The notes under the pieces were generated by a model. The model made no database searches. It was not told where the DNA came from and was given only the letters and a program-made list of their open reading frames with translations. Both the position numbers and the translations under genes were made by a program. A stretch of DNA of 64,000 nucleotides from an uncultured Pelagibacteraceae bacterium. Its GTDB lineage: Bacteria; Pseudomonadota; Alphaproteobacteria; Pelagibacterales; Pelagibacteraceae. Of this stretch, positions 8,862 through 26,737 are shown piece after piece. The number at the start of each line of letters is the position of its first letter. The first letter of the stretch is position 1. The stretch spans positions 1 to 64,000 of the forward strand of contig CACEXV010000002.1 of the NCBI GenBank assembly GCA_902563575.1, read 5' to 3'.

Positions 8862-9788
8862 TTATGCAGTTGCAGATAAGTTGATCTTAGATTTTTTTAA
8901 GTCTTTTGTTATTAACTCTATATTTTCAAGATCAATTAGTACGAAATTCGAACTTTCTTCAAAAATTTTTTTTAGTAAGCCTATAGTCATTTTATGTCCA
9001 CCCTCTTTGCAAGATACATTACCTAAAACTCTTGAGCCTGAAAGCATCATATCGCCACATAGATCTAATATTTTATGATTTACAAATTCGTTTTTATTTC
9101 TTAAGCCACTTGGATTTAAAACCTTTTCATTGTCTACGACAATTGCATTATCTAAAGATCCACCCTTAGCAAGTCCCACTTTTTTAATTTGCTCAATATC
9201 TTCATAAAGACAAAAAGTTCGAGATGAGTATACGTCTTTTAATTGATCTTTATAAAAATCAACTTTATTTTTTTGATTACCTATAATTTGATTTTCATAG
9301 CTCAATTCAAAATCTATGCTTAGACCAAAATTGTTTGGCTTTATCTTTATAGACTTAGTACCATCTTTAAAATTTACTTCTTTGCAGATTTTCACAAATT
9401 TTCTTTTTTTTAACTGTTCTTCTGTTCCAGCGGTTTTTATTATCTCTATAAAATCTGATGATGAGCCATCCATAATTGGAACCTCATTATTATCTATCTC
9501 GACTATCAAGTTGTCTATACCAGTTATGTATATAGCTGCCATCAAATGCTCAATCGTACTGACAGAAACACCGCTTGAATTTGAAATTGTTGTGCATAGT
9601 TGCGCTGATGAAACATTTTTATACTCGGCTTTAATAAATTGATTTTTCTTTACATCAGTTCTTTTAAAAACTATCCCAGTGTTTTCTTCAGCGGGAACTA
9701 GAGTTACATTGGCCATATTGCCATAGTGCAAGCCGATTCCCTTAAAAGAGATATTTTTTTTTATTGTATGTTGCAGATAATTATTCAT
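8862..9788 (-). CDS. lpxC: UDP-3-O-acyl-N-acetylglucosamine deacetylase
   Basis: MNNYLQHTIKKNISFKGIGLHYG, STIEHLMAA, EVPIMDGSS, HKILDLCGDM. ATG at 9788 preferred over the ORF-track start at 9851. Confidence 0.95.
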   Translation of the reverse strand: MNNYLQHTIKKNISFKGIGLHYGNMANVTLVPAEENTGIVFKRTDVKKNQFIKAEYKNVSSAQLCTTISNSSGVSVSTIEHLMAAIYITGIDNLIVEIDNNEVPIMDGSSSDFIEIIKTAGTEEQLKKRKFVKICKEVNFKDGTKSIKIKPNNFGLSIDFELSYENQIIGNQKNKVDFYKDQLKDVYSSRTFCLYEDIEQIKKVGLAKGGSLDNAIVVDNEKVLNPSGLRNKNEFVNHKILDLCGDMMLSGSRVLGNVSCKEGGHKMTIGLLKKIFEESSNFVLIDLENIELITKDLKKSKINLSATA

Positions 9789-9853
9789 CGAGGAAGTTAT
9801 AGATTGAGAATCGGTAGAACTTAAAACAAGAAATGTTTCAAAAAATAACAAGA

Positions 9854-11044
9854 CTACTTAAATATTATTCTAAAGAACTTAGATAAAAGCGACCTTTTTT
9901 CAACTTTTATAGGTAAAGCTTCTGATTTCCACCCATTTATAACTAGACTCATAGCTGTTAAATAATTATCTTCTTGTTCATCTTGGGTTTCTACGAAGGT
10001 CTCGATGTTCTGGTCTAAATAAATTTTAAAATTTTTTGAAAAGTTCTTGTAAATATACACGTCTTCAAAAGACAACTTTATAAAAACATTTTTGTTGGCA
10101 AAACTAAGATTTATATTTTTTTTTATCAATATATCGCAAATTTCAGATATTCTTGCATTGATAATGTCTTCAACATGTTGCAAACTAATTTGTCTATTCT
10201 TTAAATTATCATGATCAAAATATTTTTCCTCAATATTTGAAACCTTTTTTTTCACATCATTAAAGTCCGTATCTTTAATTAAATTTTGAGAATTATTTAG
10301 ACTCAGTTTACAAACTTTTGCAACGTCTTTATATAATATATCAGATCCAAAATTGAATGACTCAGAATATTTAAATGCGGCATTTTCAAAAAATGATAAT
10401 TGGATATCTTTATCATTTATTTTAATATCAATTATCTTTTTTTTTCCCAAGAAAGTATTTATTGAATTAATTCCTCTTATAAAGTTTTTTAAAATAATTC
10501 TCTCAACATCTAAGTTACATGAATTACATAATGCATTTATTCTTCTTTTTTCATCACTATCAATTAAAAAAAAGGATAAGGAGTGCCCATAAAAATCAGC
10601 TGTTGAATTTATAGGAATGGATTCTACTTCTTTAAAATCTAAAATAAAACTAGTATTAAAAATATGAATGATGTCTTTATTTTTTTCGTTTTTGAGCACG
10701 TCTGTTTTAAGTTTATTTATCAAAAAGGTTACATCATCATTATTTATTTTTGATCCGAGCATATTTTTTGAGCTTGATATATTAATATTATTAGAATTGT
10801 AGTAATTCAGTATGACTATTATTTTATGAAAAATTTTACTACTTTTTTTTTCTATTTCATTTAGTGTTTTTTTTAATCTTTTTTTTATTTCATCACTTAT
10901 AATTAACTTGCCGTTTTCCACACATGTTAATTCTATAATTTCTTTTTGAATGATTGATAAGATTTTATCCTTTTCTAAAATGACTAAAAATATTAAAGAA
11001 CTATTATTAATTTCCAAAAATAATTTAACATTTTTCTCTGGCAT
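9854..11044 (-). CDS. ftsA: Highly divergent FtsA-like protein
   Basis: Syntenic position between ftsQ and lpxC; residual SHS2/1C-like segment PINSTADFYGHSLSFFLIDSDEKRRINALCNSCNLDVERIILKNFIRGIN; C-terminal amphipathic tail KRSLLSKFFRIIFK. Canonical actin-fold phosphate motifs not recognisable. Confidence 0.7.
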   Translation of the reverse strand: MPEKNVKLFLEINNSSLIFLVILEKDKILSIIQKEIIELTCVENGKLIISDEIKKRLKKTLNEIEKKSSKIFHKIIVILNYYNSNNINISSSKNMLGSKINNDDVTFLINKLKTDVLKNEKNKDIIHIFNTSFILDFKEVESIPINSTADFYGHSLSFFLIDSDEKRRINALCNSCNLDVERIILKNFIRGINSINTFLGKKKIIDIKINDKDIQLSFFENAAFKYSESFNFGSDILYKDVAKVCKLSLNNSQNLIKDTDFNDVKKKVSNIEEKYFDHDNLKNRQISLQHVEDIINARISEICDILIKKNINLSFANKNVFIKLSFEDVYIYKNFSKNFKIYLDQNIETFVETQDEQEDNYLTAMSLVINGWKSEALPIKVEKRSLLSKFFRIIFK

Positions 11045-11046
11045 AA

Positions 11047-11700
11047 TTATTTTAAGATCAATTGATCTTTAATGCGGTAATCAAATACTGAGTGATTTTT
11101 AATTAAATTGTTATCTAAATTGAGATAATTTGTAATACTATTCTTATAATCCAGTTTGGGTAACTTAATCAATTTTTTATTTTTTGTTAGAATATCCCAT
11201 CTGCCTACCTCAAAATAATAATATGCTTTTATATTATTCAAATTAAAATTGAGAAATCCTAAATCTTCATAAAATTCTACAAATTTTTTGTAATCACCAA
11301 AAACATTTGGTAATTTATTATTTAAAATATCTTTATTAAATTTCAGTAATTTGTTATCTCTGGAGAGAAAAAATTTATCCTTATTTTTATTTACAATAGC
11401 AATAATTTCTCTTTCTTTTAATTCAATTATGATTTTGTCTGGGTAAACTTTTTTTAGTGATGCGTTTTCAATAAACTCGTAATCATTTATCAAAGAATTA
11501 ATTTTTTCTATATTGAGAGCCATTAAATTAGTTTCATATAATACGGATAATTCCTTTGTAATTTCTTTTTTTGAGATATTTTTTCCTGTGGATACCTCTA
11601 TCTTTTTTATTGGAAAAAATTCAATTTCAACTTTCGGATTATATGTAGGTAATAAAAAAAAAGATATTATAATTAAATATTTTAAGTTTTTATTTATCAT
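11047..11700 (-). CDS. ftsQ: Cell division protein FtsQ (POTRA-containing)
   Basis: N-terminal TM, POTRA-like KKIEVSTGKNISKKEITKEL, LKKVYPDKIIIELKEREIIAIV, position between ddl and ftsA. Confidence 0.85.
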   Translation of the reverse strand: MINKNLKYLIIISFFLLPTYNPKVEIEFFPIKKIEVSTGKNISKKEITKELSVLYETNLMALNIEKINSLINDYEFIENASLKKVYPDKIIIELKEREIIAIVNKNKDKFFLSRDNKLLKFNKDILNNKLPNVFGDYKKFVEFYEDLGFLNFNLNNIKAYYYFEVGRWDILTKNKKLIKLPKLDYKNSITNYLNLDNNLIKNHSVFDYRIKDQLILK

Positions 11701-18417: not shown

Positions 18418-19503
18418 TTATCTTAATTTTAGGGTAGCTAAACCTATTAATGCTAAAATAATAGCTATTATCCAAAATCTAATTACAATGGTTGACTCAG
18501 GCCAACCTTTTTTTTCAAAATGATGGTGAATTGGAGCCATCATGAATACCCTTTTGCCGGTTAATTTAAAAGAAATTACTTGAATTATTACAGAAACAGT
18601 TTCAAGTACAAACAGTCCTCCAATTATAGCCAAGACAATTTCGTGTTTAGCTATTACAGCAACAGCAGCTAAAGAACCCCCTAATGACAAAGACCCAGTA
18701 TCCCCCATAAAAATTTTAGCGGGAGGTGCGTTGTACCAAAGGAAACCTAAACAAGAACCAACTATTGATCCGCAAAATACTGAAATTTCACCCACACCAG
18801 GAATAAATTGAATATAAAGGTAATCTGAAAAAATTGCGTTACCAACTAAATAGCATATTAATGTAAAAGAAAGCGCAACCAACATTACAGGTACAGTAGC
18901 CAAACCATCAAGCCCGTCCGTTAAATTAACCGCATTTGATGCTCCTATGATTACAAATAATACAAATGGAATAAAAAATATTCCTAAGTCTACTATTAAA
19001 TTTTTAAAAAATGGAAAGTATAACTTGTCTAAATATTCATGATCTGAAAAATTTATAAGTATTAATATTGTCAAGACTCCAACTAGTAACTGTCCTAAGA
19101 ATTTAAACTTTGAATTTAAACCTTGAGAATTCTTTTTTTTAATTTTTAAGTAATCATCAATAAAGCCTAAAAGCGCTAAGGCAAGTGATATAAAAATTAA
19201 TGTCCAAATAAAAATATTGTTTAAATCAGACCATAACAAAGTACTGATTGTCATACTTATTATTATGATTATACCGCCCATTGTTGGCGTACCGGTTTTT
19301 TTTATAATATGATCTATTGGGCCGTCTCTTCTAATTTGTCCAGTGATTTGATTGTTAGAGAAAGATCTAATTAAAGGTCCTCCAATTAAAAAAGAAATTA
19401 TTAATGAAGTACCCACTGCTAAACCAGTCCTAAAAGTCAAAAATTTAAAAACAAAAAAACCAGGATAAGTTTCTGATAATGATAATAGTAAACTATACAA
19501 CAT
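18418..19503 (-). CDS. mraY: Phospho-N-acetylmuramoyl-pentapeptide-transferase
   Basis: GTPTMGGIIIIIS, GFIDDYLKIKKKNSQGL, NLTDGLDGLA, FMGDTGSLSLGG, APIHHHFEKKGWPE. Confidence 0.98.
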   Translation of the reverse strand: MLYSLLLSLSETYPGFFVFKFLTFRTGLAVGTSLIISFLIGGPLIRSFSNNQITGQIRRDGPIDHIIKKTGTPTMGGIIIIISMTISTLLWSDLNNIFIWTLIFISLALALLGFIDDYLKIKKKNSQGLNSKFKFLGQLLVGVLTILILINFSDHEYLDKLYFPFFKNLIVDLGIFFIPFVLFVIIGASNAVNLTDGLDGLATVPVMLVALSFTLICYLVGNAIFSDYLYIQFIPGVGEISVFCGSIVGSCLGFLWYNAPPAKIFMGDTGSLSLGGSLAAVAVIAKHEIVLAIIGGLFVLETVSVIIQVISFKLTGKRVFMMAPIHHHFEKKGWPESTIVIRFWIIAIILALIGLATLKLR

Positions 19504-22243
19504 TTTTTAATCCATTAATTATTGTCTTTGAGAATTTACTTACTCCAGTAGCATTAGATCCTTTAATCATTAGGTAATCATTGTTTTGAATAATATTTTT
19601 TAATAATTGATCCAAATCACTTAAATTTTGTAAAATATTACCCCGTTTGTGTTTATCTAAATACTTGTAAGTAATCAAAACTTTTTGACCATAGGTGAAT
19701 GTTTTATCAACATTAGACTTGTTAATAACATTAGAAATGTCTTTATGGTAATCATTTGATTTTTTACCTAACTCAAGCATATCCCCAATGATTAAATACT
19801 TTTTATATTTTGTAGCTAGGTTTGATAAATTTTCAATTGCATTTTTTGTTGAAGATGGATTTGCATTATAACTTTCATCAATTAAATTAAAGATTTTTTT
19901 ATATCTTTTTACTCTAAAAATTTTACCTCTTCCTTCCAGAAATTTACTGTTGTTAAATGTTTCTGATATTTTATTACAATCTAAATTAAGTATTTTTAAT
20001 ACTGCCAGACAGCACAGTAGATTTAAAATGTTAACTTTATTTGTATTAGCCAATTTAAAATTAATGATCTTTTTAAAGTGACACACTATTACCTTATTTC
20101 TTATAATTTTTTTTATATGAATATCTGATAGTTTCGATAGTCCAAATGAAATGACTTTTAGTTTTTTTCTATCAGCAATTTTTTTATGAAAATGGTAAAA
20201 TTTATCATCTCGATTTAAAATAATGTGACCATTATTAACAATATTATCAATTATTTCTGCCTTAGCTTTCGCAATTTCTTTTATTGAACTAAAATTTTCC
20301 ATATGCGCTTCGCCGATATTAGTGATTATTCCAATATTTGGTTTGACCATTTTTGATAATTTATGAATTTCACCTTTTTTACTCATTCCAATTTCAAGAA
20401 CACAAAATTTATTCTTTACTTTAAAATTTGATAGGCTTAATGGCACACCAAATTCATTGTTATACGATTTGGGAGAAATATATGTTGAAGAAAAATTGCT
20501 CAAAACTTTTCCAATCATTGTCTTGAGAGTGGTCTTACCTGAGCTACCAGTAACTCCGATAAATGTTGAATTAGAAAAATCCCTTTTTAGGCTACCAAAA
20601 AGTTTTAAAAATTTTAATGTATTTTTAAAGTAATAAGTGTTTTTTTTATTATTTAATTTTGATGATCTAATTGCCCCATTTGCTCCCTTCAACAAGGCAC
20701 TATTAACAAAATTATTCCCATTATTTATTTTTCCTTTTATAGCTACAAAAAGATTTCCTTTCTGTTTTGCTCTCGAGTCTATTGATATATTATCAAAAAA
20801 GAGATTGGATTTTTTATTTAAAATGTTGGAAAAAATAAAATTATTTAATTTCTTATCATTATCTATTAAAATTTTTTTTCTATTGAATTGTTTTACTATT
20901 TTTTTATCAGATATTTTTAGAGTATATTTACCGTAATCTTGGGTCGTTTCATGTCCCTTGCCTGCAATCAATATACATTCTCCAGGAAAAGAATTCTTGA
21001 TTGCATGATTAATTGCTTTTGATCGATTTGCAATGTCATAAACTTTTTCTTTGGCAATATATTTCAATAAAGTATTTCTAATCTTTTTTGGATTTTCATG
21101 TCTTGGATTGTCATCAGTAACTATAACTTTCCTACAATATTTGTTTGCAATTTTTGCCATCATTTTTCTTTTTTTAATATCTCTTTCACCACCGCAGCCA
21201 AAAACTAAAGTTACATTTTTATTGCTATCTTCAACTAGGCTTTTTAAAACTTTTTCTAATGCATCAGGTGTATGGGCATAATCAACAAAAATTTTACTAT
21301 TATTAATTTTTCTGACTAATTCTAACCTGCCAGGTATTTGATGAAATTTTTTAAGAGCAAAAATAATGTTTTTTTCTTTAAGTCCGCAAATTTTTGCCGC
21401 TGCAATGGCTTTTGATAAATTTTCTAACTGAAATTTTGCCTCGAAGTTTTCTAATTTTAATTTTGTTAATTTTTTATATATTTCATGTGTTTGAATTAAT
21501 TTTAATTTTTTTCTTTTTGAAATTTGGTTTATTTTATTAAATTCCGGAACTTGTTTTGAGATAATAGAAAAATTACCCTTTTTAAGATATTTTCTAAATA
21601 GTAAAAGTTTGGCATTTAAATAGTTTTTTTTTGTTATATGGTAGTCTAAATGATCCTGGCTTAAGTTTGTAAATATACCAGCTTTAAAATTTAACCCATC
21701 AAGCCTACCTTGATGTAGACCATGGCTTGAGGCCTCTAAAATAACAGAGTCTATTTTTTTTCTTTTGATATCTCTCATGTATTTATGAAGAGAAACTGAG
21801 TCTGGAGTTGTTAAAATTGATTTAGTCTTTTTGTAATTTAAATACATTCCAAGTGTTCCGATGGTAGCAACTTTTATTTTATTTAAATATAATAATTGAC
21901 GAAAATAATCTACGACTGAACTTTTTCCATTCGTCCCGGTTACGGCTATGATATTTTTAGGTTGATCTTTATAAAATTTTCTACATGCACTTATTAGTGT
22001 AGCTTTGATATTCTTATTTTTGCAAAATATTATTTTTCTATTTGAAGATCGTTTATCTGAGATAACGGCTTTTGCGCCTCTTTTGATAGCTTCTTTTATG
22101 TAATGTATCCCGTTATACTTTTGGCCTTTAATAGCAAAAAATAAATAGCCCTTTTTAATCTGTTTGCTGTCGGTTGCTATGCCTTTAACCTTTACATTGT
22201 TTAAAGACAATGGGCAGTTTTTAATTAAATTTTTTAACAACAT
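19493..22243 (-). CDS. murEF: Fused MurE-MurF: UDP-MurNAc-dipeptide ligase plus UDP-MurNAc-tripeptide:D-Ala-D-Ala ligase
   Basis: One uninterrupted 916-aa ORF. The N half has AVTGTNGKSSVVDYFRQL, SSHGL and TDDNPRHENP (MurE). The C half restarts with IDSRAKQKGNLFVAIKG then GVTGSSGKTTLKTMIG and LIDESYNANPSS (MurF). Confidence 0.94.
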   Translation of the reverse strand: MLLKNLIKNCPLSLNNVKVKGIATDSKQIKKGYLFFAIKGQKYNGIHYIKEAIKRGAKAVISDKRSSNRKIIFCKNKNIKATLISACRKFYKDQPKNIIAVTGTNGKSSVVDYFRQLLYLNKIKVATIGTLGMYLNYKKTKSILTTPDSVSLHKYMRDIKRKKIDSVILEASSHGLHQGRLDGLNFKAGIFTNLSQDHLDYHITKKNYLNAKLLLFRKYLKKGNFSIISKQVPEFNKINQISKRKKLKLIQTHEIYKKLTKLKLENFEAKFQLENLSKAIAAAKICGLKEKNIIFALKKFHQIPGRLELVRKINNSKIFVDYAHTPDALEKVLKSLVEDSNKNVTLVFGCGGERDIKKRKMMAKIANKYCRKVIVTDDNPRHENPKKIRNTLLKYIAKEKVYDIANRSKAINHAIKNSFPGECILIAGKGHETTQDYGKYTLKISDKKIVKQFNRKKILIDNDKKLNNFIFSNILNKKSNLFFDNISIDSRAKQKGNLFVAIKGKINNGNNFVNSALLKGANGAIRSSKLNNKKNTYYFKNTLKFLKLFGSLKRDFSNSTFIGVTGSSGKTTLKTMIGKVLSNFSSTYISPKSYNNEFGVPLSLSNFKVKNKFCVLEIGMSKKGEIHKLSKMVKPNIGIITNIGEAHMENFSSIKEIAKAKAEIIDNIVNNGHIILNRDDKFYHFHKKIADRKKLKVISFGLSKLSDIHIKKIIRNKVIVCHFKKIINFKLANTNKVNILNLLCCLAVLKILNLDCNKISETFNNSKFLEGRGKIFRVKRYKKIFNLIDESYNANPSSTKNAIENLSNLATKYKKYLIIGDMLELGKKSNDYHKDISNVINKSNVDKTFTYGQKVLITYKYLDKHKRGNILQNLSDLDQLLKNIIQNNDYLMIKGSNATGVSKFSKTIINGLKNVV

Positions 22244-25276: not shown

Positions 25277-26737
25277 TTAAAATTTTTGTTTTCTTAAAAA
25301 TGCTGGAATCTCGAATTCCTCTTCAATTTCATCTTCACTTTCAAACATTTTTATTGAATTGATATCATCCGCAAGATTGACATTGTCGTTTGTATCAACT
25401 TTTTCTTCTAAAAACAATTTAGGTGCATCAGCTTCGACCTCATTGAAGACTTTTTTATCTTTATTACTATCTAGATTATTCTCCTCCATATACGAGGTAT
25501 TTTCAATTGATACGCCTTTTGCTTCTTGAAGATCAAGATAATTTTTTTTAACTTTTTCTTGAGATTCAATCCTTTGATTAGATAAATCATTATTAGGCTT
25601 TATCTGCTCGCTCACCTCAAAATTTTCATCTAATTTTAATGCTGTAGCACCATCAATGAGATTGATTGCATGATTTTGGGGTTTGGCTGAATTAAATAAA
25701 TTTTCTGAGTAACCATGATTTCTATTATGTATTCTGCTTCTCATGTTTAAAACTGTTCTTGCCTGAGCTTGATTACCGTCTAATGCGGTAGCCACAATAG
25801 AGACCCTTATCTTACCGTTCATATTTTCATCTTTAATAGCTCCAAATATTGACTCAGCCTCTGGATCTACCTCAGCTCTTATTTTATTTGTAATTTGATC
25901 TACCTCAAAAAGAGTTATGTCCTTTCCGCCGGTTATATTTACCAACAACCCTTTAGCTCCTTGTAGTGTATATTCATCGATTAGAGGATTGTTTAATGCC
26001 ATTTCAGTCGCGACCGTAGCTCTATTTTCCCCTTCTGCTTCACCAGTTCCCATCATCGCCTTACCCATGGCGCTCATAACAGTTTCTACATCAGCAAAAT
26101 CCAAATTTATCATTCCAGGTCTGACCATCAAATCTGTTATACTTTGAACTCCATTTTTTAAAACTGCGTTCGATAAAGAAAAAGATTCTTCAAAACCTGT
26201 TTTCTCATTAGCGATTTTAAAAAGATTTTGATTTGGAACAACAATTACAGTATCTAAATGTTTTTTAAGTTCCTCTAGTCCCTCAACAGCCCTTCGCATT
26301 CTTTTTGGACCTTCGTATGAAAAGGGAAGAGTAGTAACACCAACTGTAAGTATATTTAATTCTTTTGCTGCTCTTGCTATTACATGCGAAGCACCTGTTC
26401 CAGTTCCACCACCCATACCAGCAGTTATAAAAATCATATTACTGCCTTGAATGTAATTCACTATTTCATTCATTGACTCGTCTGCAGCTGCTTGACCTAT
26501 ATCTTGCTTTGCGCCAGCTCCTAAACCTTTAGTCAAGTTCATTCCAATTTGGATTTTTGCATCAGCTTTATTTGCTCTTAAATCCTGAGCATCTGTATTA
26601 ACTGCTACAAACTCTACACCTTGTAGCCCTGACTCTATCATCGCATTAATAGCGTTTCCGCCTGCTCCGCCAATACCAAGAACTAAAATTCTAGGCTTTA
26701 ATTCCTTTAACTCACCTCCTCCAATATTTATACTCAT
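25277..26737 (-). CDS. ftsZ: Cell division GTPase FtsZ
   Basis: GGAGGNAINAM, TAGMGGGTGTGASHVIA, RGPGM-like MVRPGMINLDFADV, C-terminal FEIPAFLRKQ peptide. Confidence 0.98.
   Translation of the reverse strand: MSINIGGGELKELKPRILVLGIGGAGGNAINAMIESGLQGVEFVAVNTDAQDLRANKADAKIQIGMNLTKGLGAGAKQDIGQAAADESMNEIVNYIQGSNMIFITAGMGGGTGTGASHVIARAAKELNILTVGVTTLPFSYEGPKRMRRAVEGLEELKKHLDTVIVVPNQNLFKIANEKTGFEESFSLSNAVLKNGVQSITDLMVRPGMINLDFADVETVMSAMGKAMMGTGEAEGENRATVATEMALNNPLIDEYTLQGAKGLLVNITGGKDITLFEVDQITNKIRAEVDPEAESIFGAIKDENMNGKIRVSIVATALDGNQAQARTVLNMRSRIHNRNHGYSENLFNSAKPQNHAINLIDGATALKLDENFEVSEQIKPNNDLSNQRIESQEKVKKNYLDLQEAKGVSIENTSYMEENNLDSNKDKKVFNEVEADAPKLFLEEKVDTNDNVNLADDINSIKMFESEDEIEEEFEIPAFLRKQKF

Follow-up and report, generated by a model that had tools for sequence, protein, structure and literature searches.

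Does the ORF that occupies the ftsA position in this SAR11 genome encode a genuine FtsA and, if so, what has become of its nucleotide-binding site? We addressed this question in the window, i.e. the whole stretch of 64,000 nucleotides that was analysed, and in related genomes. The window belongs to SAR11, since its named relatives are Pelagibacteraceae and Pelagibacterales genomes, chiefly single-cell or metagenome derived.

Genomic context of the ORF

The genes considered here are located as follows:
8862..9851, minus strand: lpxC, downstream of ftsA, probably starting near 9785 (named by sequence inspection)
9854..11044, minus strand: ftsA-position ORF (motif-less FtsA), 396 aa, intact
11047..11700, minus strand: ftsQ, directly upstream of ftsA (named by position and sequence inspection)
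25277..26737, minus strand: ftsZ, between mraZ and rsmH

The ORF starts 2 bases past the ftsQ stop codon, on the same strand as ftsQ and lpxC. With neighbours named from position and sequence, the gene order is ftsW-murG-murC-murB-ddl-ftsQ-ftsA-lpxC, and the ddl-ftsQ-ftsA-lpxC position is also found in relatives. ftsZ does not adjoin ftsA and lies about 14 kb away. In family genomes where both genes were located on one contig, the distance is about 15 kb, so that the relocation of ftsZ to the mraZ-rsmH interval, away from ftsA-lpxC, looks old. A 916-aa ORF at 19493-22243 of the window resembles a fusion of MurE and MurF.

The ORF is a FtsA by descent and predicted fold

The FtsA model TIGR01174 matches residues 15-316 of the ORF with an E-value of 2e-15 and 56.8 bits, for a curated cut-off of 175.85. 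A profile built from 79 relatives retrieves E. coli FtsA in the PDB (E 4.7e-18). An AlphaFold model computed with the 79-sequence alignment (pLDDT 88.3, pTM 0.85) was compared to the PDB with Foldseek: the 19 top-ranked chains were all FtsA (E 3e-23 to 1e-18; TM by query length 0.55-0.66), with PilM behind. The protein thus has an actin-like fold with a FtsA-type 1C domain, and ORF 9854-11044 is a genuine FtsA by descent and predicted fold. This agrees with the sequence-only reading, which had seen in it a diverged FtsA ortholog, and excludes that it bears no similarity to FtsA at all.

With the FtsAs of E. coli, Vibrio maritimus and Thermotoga maritima (PDB 7Q6D, 7Q6F/7Q6I, 1E4G, 4A2A) the window protein shares the fold including the FtsA-specific 1C domain, the position after ftsQ, an amphipathic C-terminal helix, the acidic phosphate-1 residue, the Arg and Glu of the PRxxE helix and the FtsZ tail peptide. 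Unlike them, it lacks the phosphate-2 and adenosine motifs, carries a GWKKEAIP box before the helix and scores far under the curated cut-off. PilM of type IV pili (PDB 2YCH, 5EOU, solved with ATP or ADP bound) has a FtsA-like fold with a 1C domain too, but it matches less well in structure (TM by query length 0.47-0.57) and stands in another gene context. We also considered, and rejected, that the genome encodes another, intact FtsA: the remaining TIGR01174/PF14450 matches are MreB and a 644-aa frame, probably DnaK (genome 84% complete).

The nucleotide-binding motifs are lost throughout the clade

The three regions corresponding to the nucleotide site are:
10979..11020, minus strand: degenerate phosphate-1 region, residues 9-22 (FLEINNSSLIFLVI), in which Gly is lost and the acidic residue persists as Glu
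10391..10432, minus strand: degenerate phosphate-2 hairpin, residues 205-218 (IDIKINDKDIQLSF)
10043..10087, minus strand: degenerate adenosine motif, residues 320-334 (VFIKLSFEDVYIYKN), among the stretches that are least conserved within the clade

We aligned 143 FtsA proteins: 80 from the window's genus (g1; 79 loci and the window), 7 from its sister genus (g9), 23 from other Pelagibacteraceae, 9 from the other Pelagibacterales family and 24 reference proteins, which are ordinary alphaproteobacterial FtsAs. Motif loss was scored at the 75 columns invariant across the 24 canonical alphaproteobacterial proteins.

The central DGGGTT-type motif and the late GG motif had been reported missing from the window protein, and both losses hold. 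The first stretch aligns with phosphate-2 (DxGGGTT), where Asp is kept in 2/87 members of g1 and g9 and the third Gly in none (0/87); the second aligns with the adenosine motif (GG[A/G]), where each of the two Gly is gone from all 87 members (0/87 kept). Neither motif is present as defined. The claimed absence of phosphate-1 ([D/E]xG[S/T]) stood only in part: its Gly is indeed lost (kept in 3/87), whereas the acidic residue is retained as Glu in 70 of the 80 g1 members. The corresponding residue of E. coli FtsA, E14, is also a Glu (PMC10213515). Absence of the motifs is therefore a property of the whole clade of 87 FtsAs. At other positions retention is complete (E65, D136, P144, G233, D240, R298 and E301, 87/87) or nearly so (H127, 86/87). 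The ORF is accordingly a new variant: FtsA by descent and fold, without the motifs by which an ATP-binding member of the actin superfamily is recognised.

One could imagine that ATP is still bound in a pocket rebuilt from different residues. The intact fold (AlphaFold, Foldseek), the phosphate-1 Glu and the Ser or Thr that 69 of the 80 g1 members have at the final position of phosphate-2 would be compatible with such a site. Nevertheless, in nearly all members the phosphate-2 and adenosine Gly are replaced by bulky or charged residues that differ from species to species, and the adenosine region has a mean entropy of 2.6 bits, unlike a rebuilt site under selection. We thus regard a rebuilt pocket as improbable; from the alignment, ATP binding appears to have been lost.

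The gene is maintained by selection

Loss of motifs could simply mean that the gene is dying, or be an artefact of sequencing. FtsA diverges fast, with 31-38% identity between the window and its g1 relatives versus 71-75% for FtsZ, and the window copy forms the longest branch of the genus; it has also lost the 1C residues G146 and G149, which its relatives keep. However, intact ORFs of 376-401 aa were present in all 80 relatives fetched, the gene position is conserved, and dN/dS between close pairs was 0.09-0.34, mostly 0.1-0.2, by a simple counting method. Together, the intact frames and these low ratios indicate that ftsA is not decaying and is under purifying selection. Broken copies in g9 (in-frame stops in G198, G201 and G204; frame breaks at loci L170, L171 and L172) were rejected as evidence of decay, since at two of the three loci, L170 and L171, the neighbouring genes are broken as well, which points to sequence errors. 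The dying-gene or artefact explanation is already largely refuted, and we give it hardly any credit.

Erosion of the nucleotide site across Pelagibacterales

When the motif columns were excluded from the FtsA tree, g1 and g9 grouped as a single clade (support 100/100). Loss of all three motifs requires three changes on this tree, one in the g1 and g9 clade, one in a single g14 genome and one in a g11 genome, the latter two resting on one genome each. FtsAs of other Pelagibacterales genera have the same locus and domain order as the window protein and differ from it in their motifs. In the majority of the remaining Pelagibacteraceae genera, phosphate-1 still reads [D/E]xG and the adenosine motif GxG[S/A], and phosphate-2 is reduced to GxxKT or the like, in place of GGGTT. 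The other family of the order mostly shows DIR and GYGA, a different partial loss. Given these intermediate states, erosion of the nucleotide site is a trend of the order which is complete in the g1 and g9 clade.

The 1C domain and the C-terminal region are the most conserved

The conserved features of domain 1 and of the C-terminus are:
10559..10798, minus strand: 1C (SHS2) domain, residues 83-162, the clade's most conserved domain
9911..9934, minus strand: GWKSEALP box, residues 371-378, preceding the membrane helix (GWKKEAIP in the clade consensus)
9857..9895, minus strand: C-terminal basic amphipathic helix, residues 384-396 (RSLLSKFFRIIFK)

Both a 1C-like segment and a basic amphipathic tail had been recognised from the sequence, and both were recovered here. 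In the 1C domain, the predicted fold is kept and 29 of 80 sites are conserved at >=90%, versus 0/34 in the adenosine strand and none in the last 1A helix. The GWKKEAIP box has a mean identity of 0.91 in the genus. The C-terminal helix ranks 4th of the 385 12-mers of the protein by hydrophobic moment and is helical in the AlphaFold model. The conservation pattern within the genus is the reverse of that expected of an ATPase. Given this concentration of conservation in 1C and in the box preceding the tail, an adaptor function directed at the late divisome may be no less important than the tethering of FtsZ.

In gammaproteobacteria, the 1C domain binds FtsN and makes a lateral filament contact (PMC7613929). 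No SPOR domain, as carried by FtsN, was found in three g1 genomes, the window's own and those of two relatives (G000, G006 and G020 together). FtsN may thus be absent from the genus or unrecognisable, and it was not retained as the 1C partner because no SPOR domain was detected in the window's genome.

The FtsZ side and membrane anchors

The features bearing on FtsZ binding are:
10121..10348, minus strand: 2B-like subdomain, residues 233-308, with invariant G233, D240, R298 and E301
25280..25315, minus strand: FtsZ C-terminal tail

Counted from the profile alignment, the four residues correspond to G236, D242, R300 and E303 of E. coli FtsA; they are identical in all 143 aligned proteins. In E. 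coli FtsA, R300 and E303 lie in the part required to bind FtsZ. The observation that FtsZ keeps its conserved tail was confirmed: the window FtsZ ends in EEEFEIPAFLRKQKF, the SAR11 C-terminal peptide is FEIPAFLRKQKF, and EIPAFLR[KR]QK is kept in all 30 sequences read. This invariance on the 2B side, together with the kept tail, suggests that the FtsZ contact is still used in the window's clade.

The very end of FtsZ (window and loci L217-L246) is QKF in all 13 window-clade sequences and QKN or QKS in the 17 other Pelagibacteraceae. We considered a QKN to QKF change as compensation for motif loss and rejected it: the fit to the clade is perfect, yet it is a single event, and two other genomes with motif loss (G124, G142) keep QKN. 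The same FtsZ sequences show a second conserved patch, P-x-LFs, in the linker.

Neither SepF nor ZipA was found in 9 genomes. Among the anchors looked for (SepF, ZipA and FtsA), FtsA is thus the only known type detected.

A proposed nucleotide-independent adaptor

The reading that we favour, and hold to be somewhat probable, is that the window FtsA acts constitutively and independently of nucleotide as a membrane adaptor linking FtsZ to the late divisome. The FtsA of this uncultivated SAR11 lineage would no longer be a nucleotide-controlled actin homologue. Its C-terminal amphipathic helix would anchor it on the membrane, its 2B-like face would bind EIPAFLRKQ at the tail of FtsZ, and contacts with other FtsA copies and late divisome proteins would be made by the 1C domain, the partner at this domain being presumptive. 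If the protein is regulated at all, this would be through its partners and its oligomeric state rather than through an ATP cycle. Binding of the FtsZ tail is predicted here from conserved residues, and membrane binding from the helix. The sequence-only proposal of a membrane tether for FtsZ that does not bind ATP is thus plausible and supported in part, while the observation behind it holds for far more than one genome.

Membrane binding without ATP has a precedent in E. coli FtsA(E14R) and FtsA(S84L), although neither complements (PMC10213515). Several observations count against such an adaptor. In E. coli, the ATP-site mutants E14R, S84L, A188V and D210A fail to complement, so that the site matters there (PMC10213515), and S. 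pneumoniae FtsA requires ATP for polymerisation and membrane attachment (reviewed in PMC5832921). The retained phosphate-1 acidic residue and the lack of a detected SPOR-domain FtsN weigh in the same direction.

A shortened FtsA in genus g6

A different reduction was observed in g6, another sister genus, which is probably Pelagibacter. In four near-complete g6 genomes the ftsQ-lpxC interval holds an ORF of 232-235 aa, and a full FtsA was not found in these four genomes. The short FtsA (~233 aa) is located at:
L247:3057-3758, minus strand
L248:3480-4178, plus strand
L249:3333-4034, plus strand
L250:4231-4938, minus strand
It is also present at L251-L280.

By profile comparison, the short ORF matches FtsA domain 1 (1A and 1C) with 99.3% probability against full-length g6 FtsAs and 98.3% against FtsAs of the window's clade. 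After domain 1 it runs straight into the terminal region and the amphipathic helix, 2A and 2B being missing. It shares with the window FtsA the ftsQ-lpxC position, the 1A and 1C domains and the terminal amphipathic helix; unlike it, it is only ~233 aa long, has wholly lost 2A and 2B and results from a separate event in a different genus. The short form constitutes one clade (support 100/98, 17 sampled). In a hand count of 199 g6 genomes, an ORF of 220-248 aa covered the model wholly or for the most part in 102, and a form of 370-401 aa occurred in 52. A LpxC signature follows the short ftsA at 29/29 loci checked and a FtsQ-like end precedes most of them (22 with both, by a crude pattern). In G053 (C1:193784-194455), G090, G055 and G070, the g6 FtsA match is broken, shorter or absent, as could result from further loss or from assembly problems.

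The short form bears on another reading, in which FtsA is a late-divisome scaffold first and a FtsZ tether second, its core being 1C and the membrane tail while the FtsZ-binding side becomes dispensable. Three observations speak for it: conservation is highest in 1C and in the GWKKEAIP box; about 100 of the 199 g6 genomes, forming one clade, have a FtsA cut to domain 1 and tail; and the gammaproteobacterial 1C domain binds FtsN and forms a lateral filament contact (PMC7613929). In the window's clade, however, G233, D240, R298 and E301 are invariant on the 2B side and the FtsZ tail is kept, suggesting a contact still in use. For that clade we consider a scaffold-first protein a serious but rather unlikely alternative to the nucleotide-independent adaptor.

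There is, in our estimation, a reasonable case that FtsA has been taken apart twice in SAR11, by different routes: the nucleotide site was lost in the window's clade, and all of domain 2, with the subdomain that binds FtsZ, in much of g6. If true, FtsA would be able to fulfil its role in division without an ATP cycle and, in some lineages, also without its known FtsZ-binding face. In the openly accessible literature, to which the search was confined, we came across no description of SAR11 FtsAs that lack the motifs or are truncated. What ATP does in FtsA has been approached in E. coli largely via loss-of-function mutants. SAR11 bacteria, among the most abundant of the ocean, supply natural FtsAs that evolved without nucleotide motifs beside close relatives keeping some, and others without ~40% of the protein (~60% of the length left). 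The need for ATP and the irreducible core of FtsA become directly testable with them by biochemistry and domain swaps, which may reveal how much of FtsA cell division truly requires.

Within g6, the genome G046 carries a full-length FtsA of 369 aa, and in the four short-FtsA genomes FtsZ keeps LEIPAFLRRQK.
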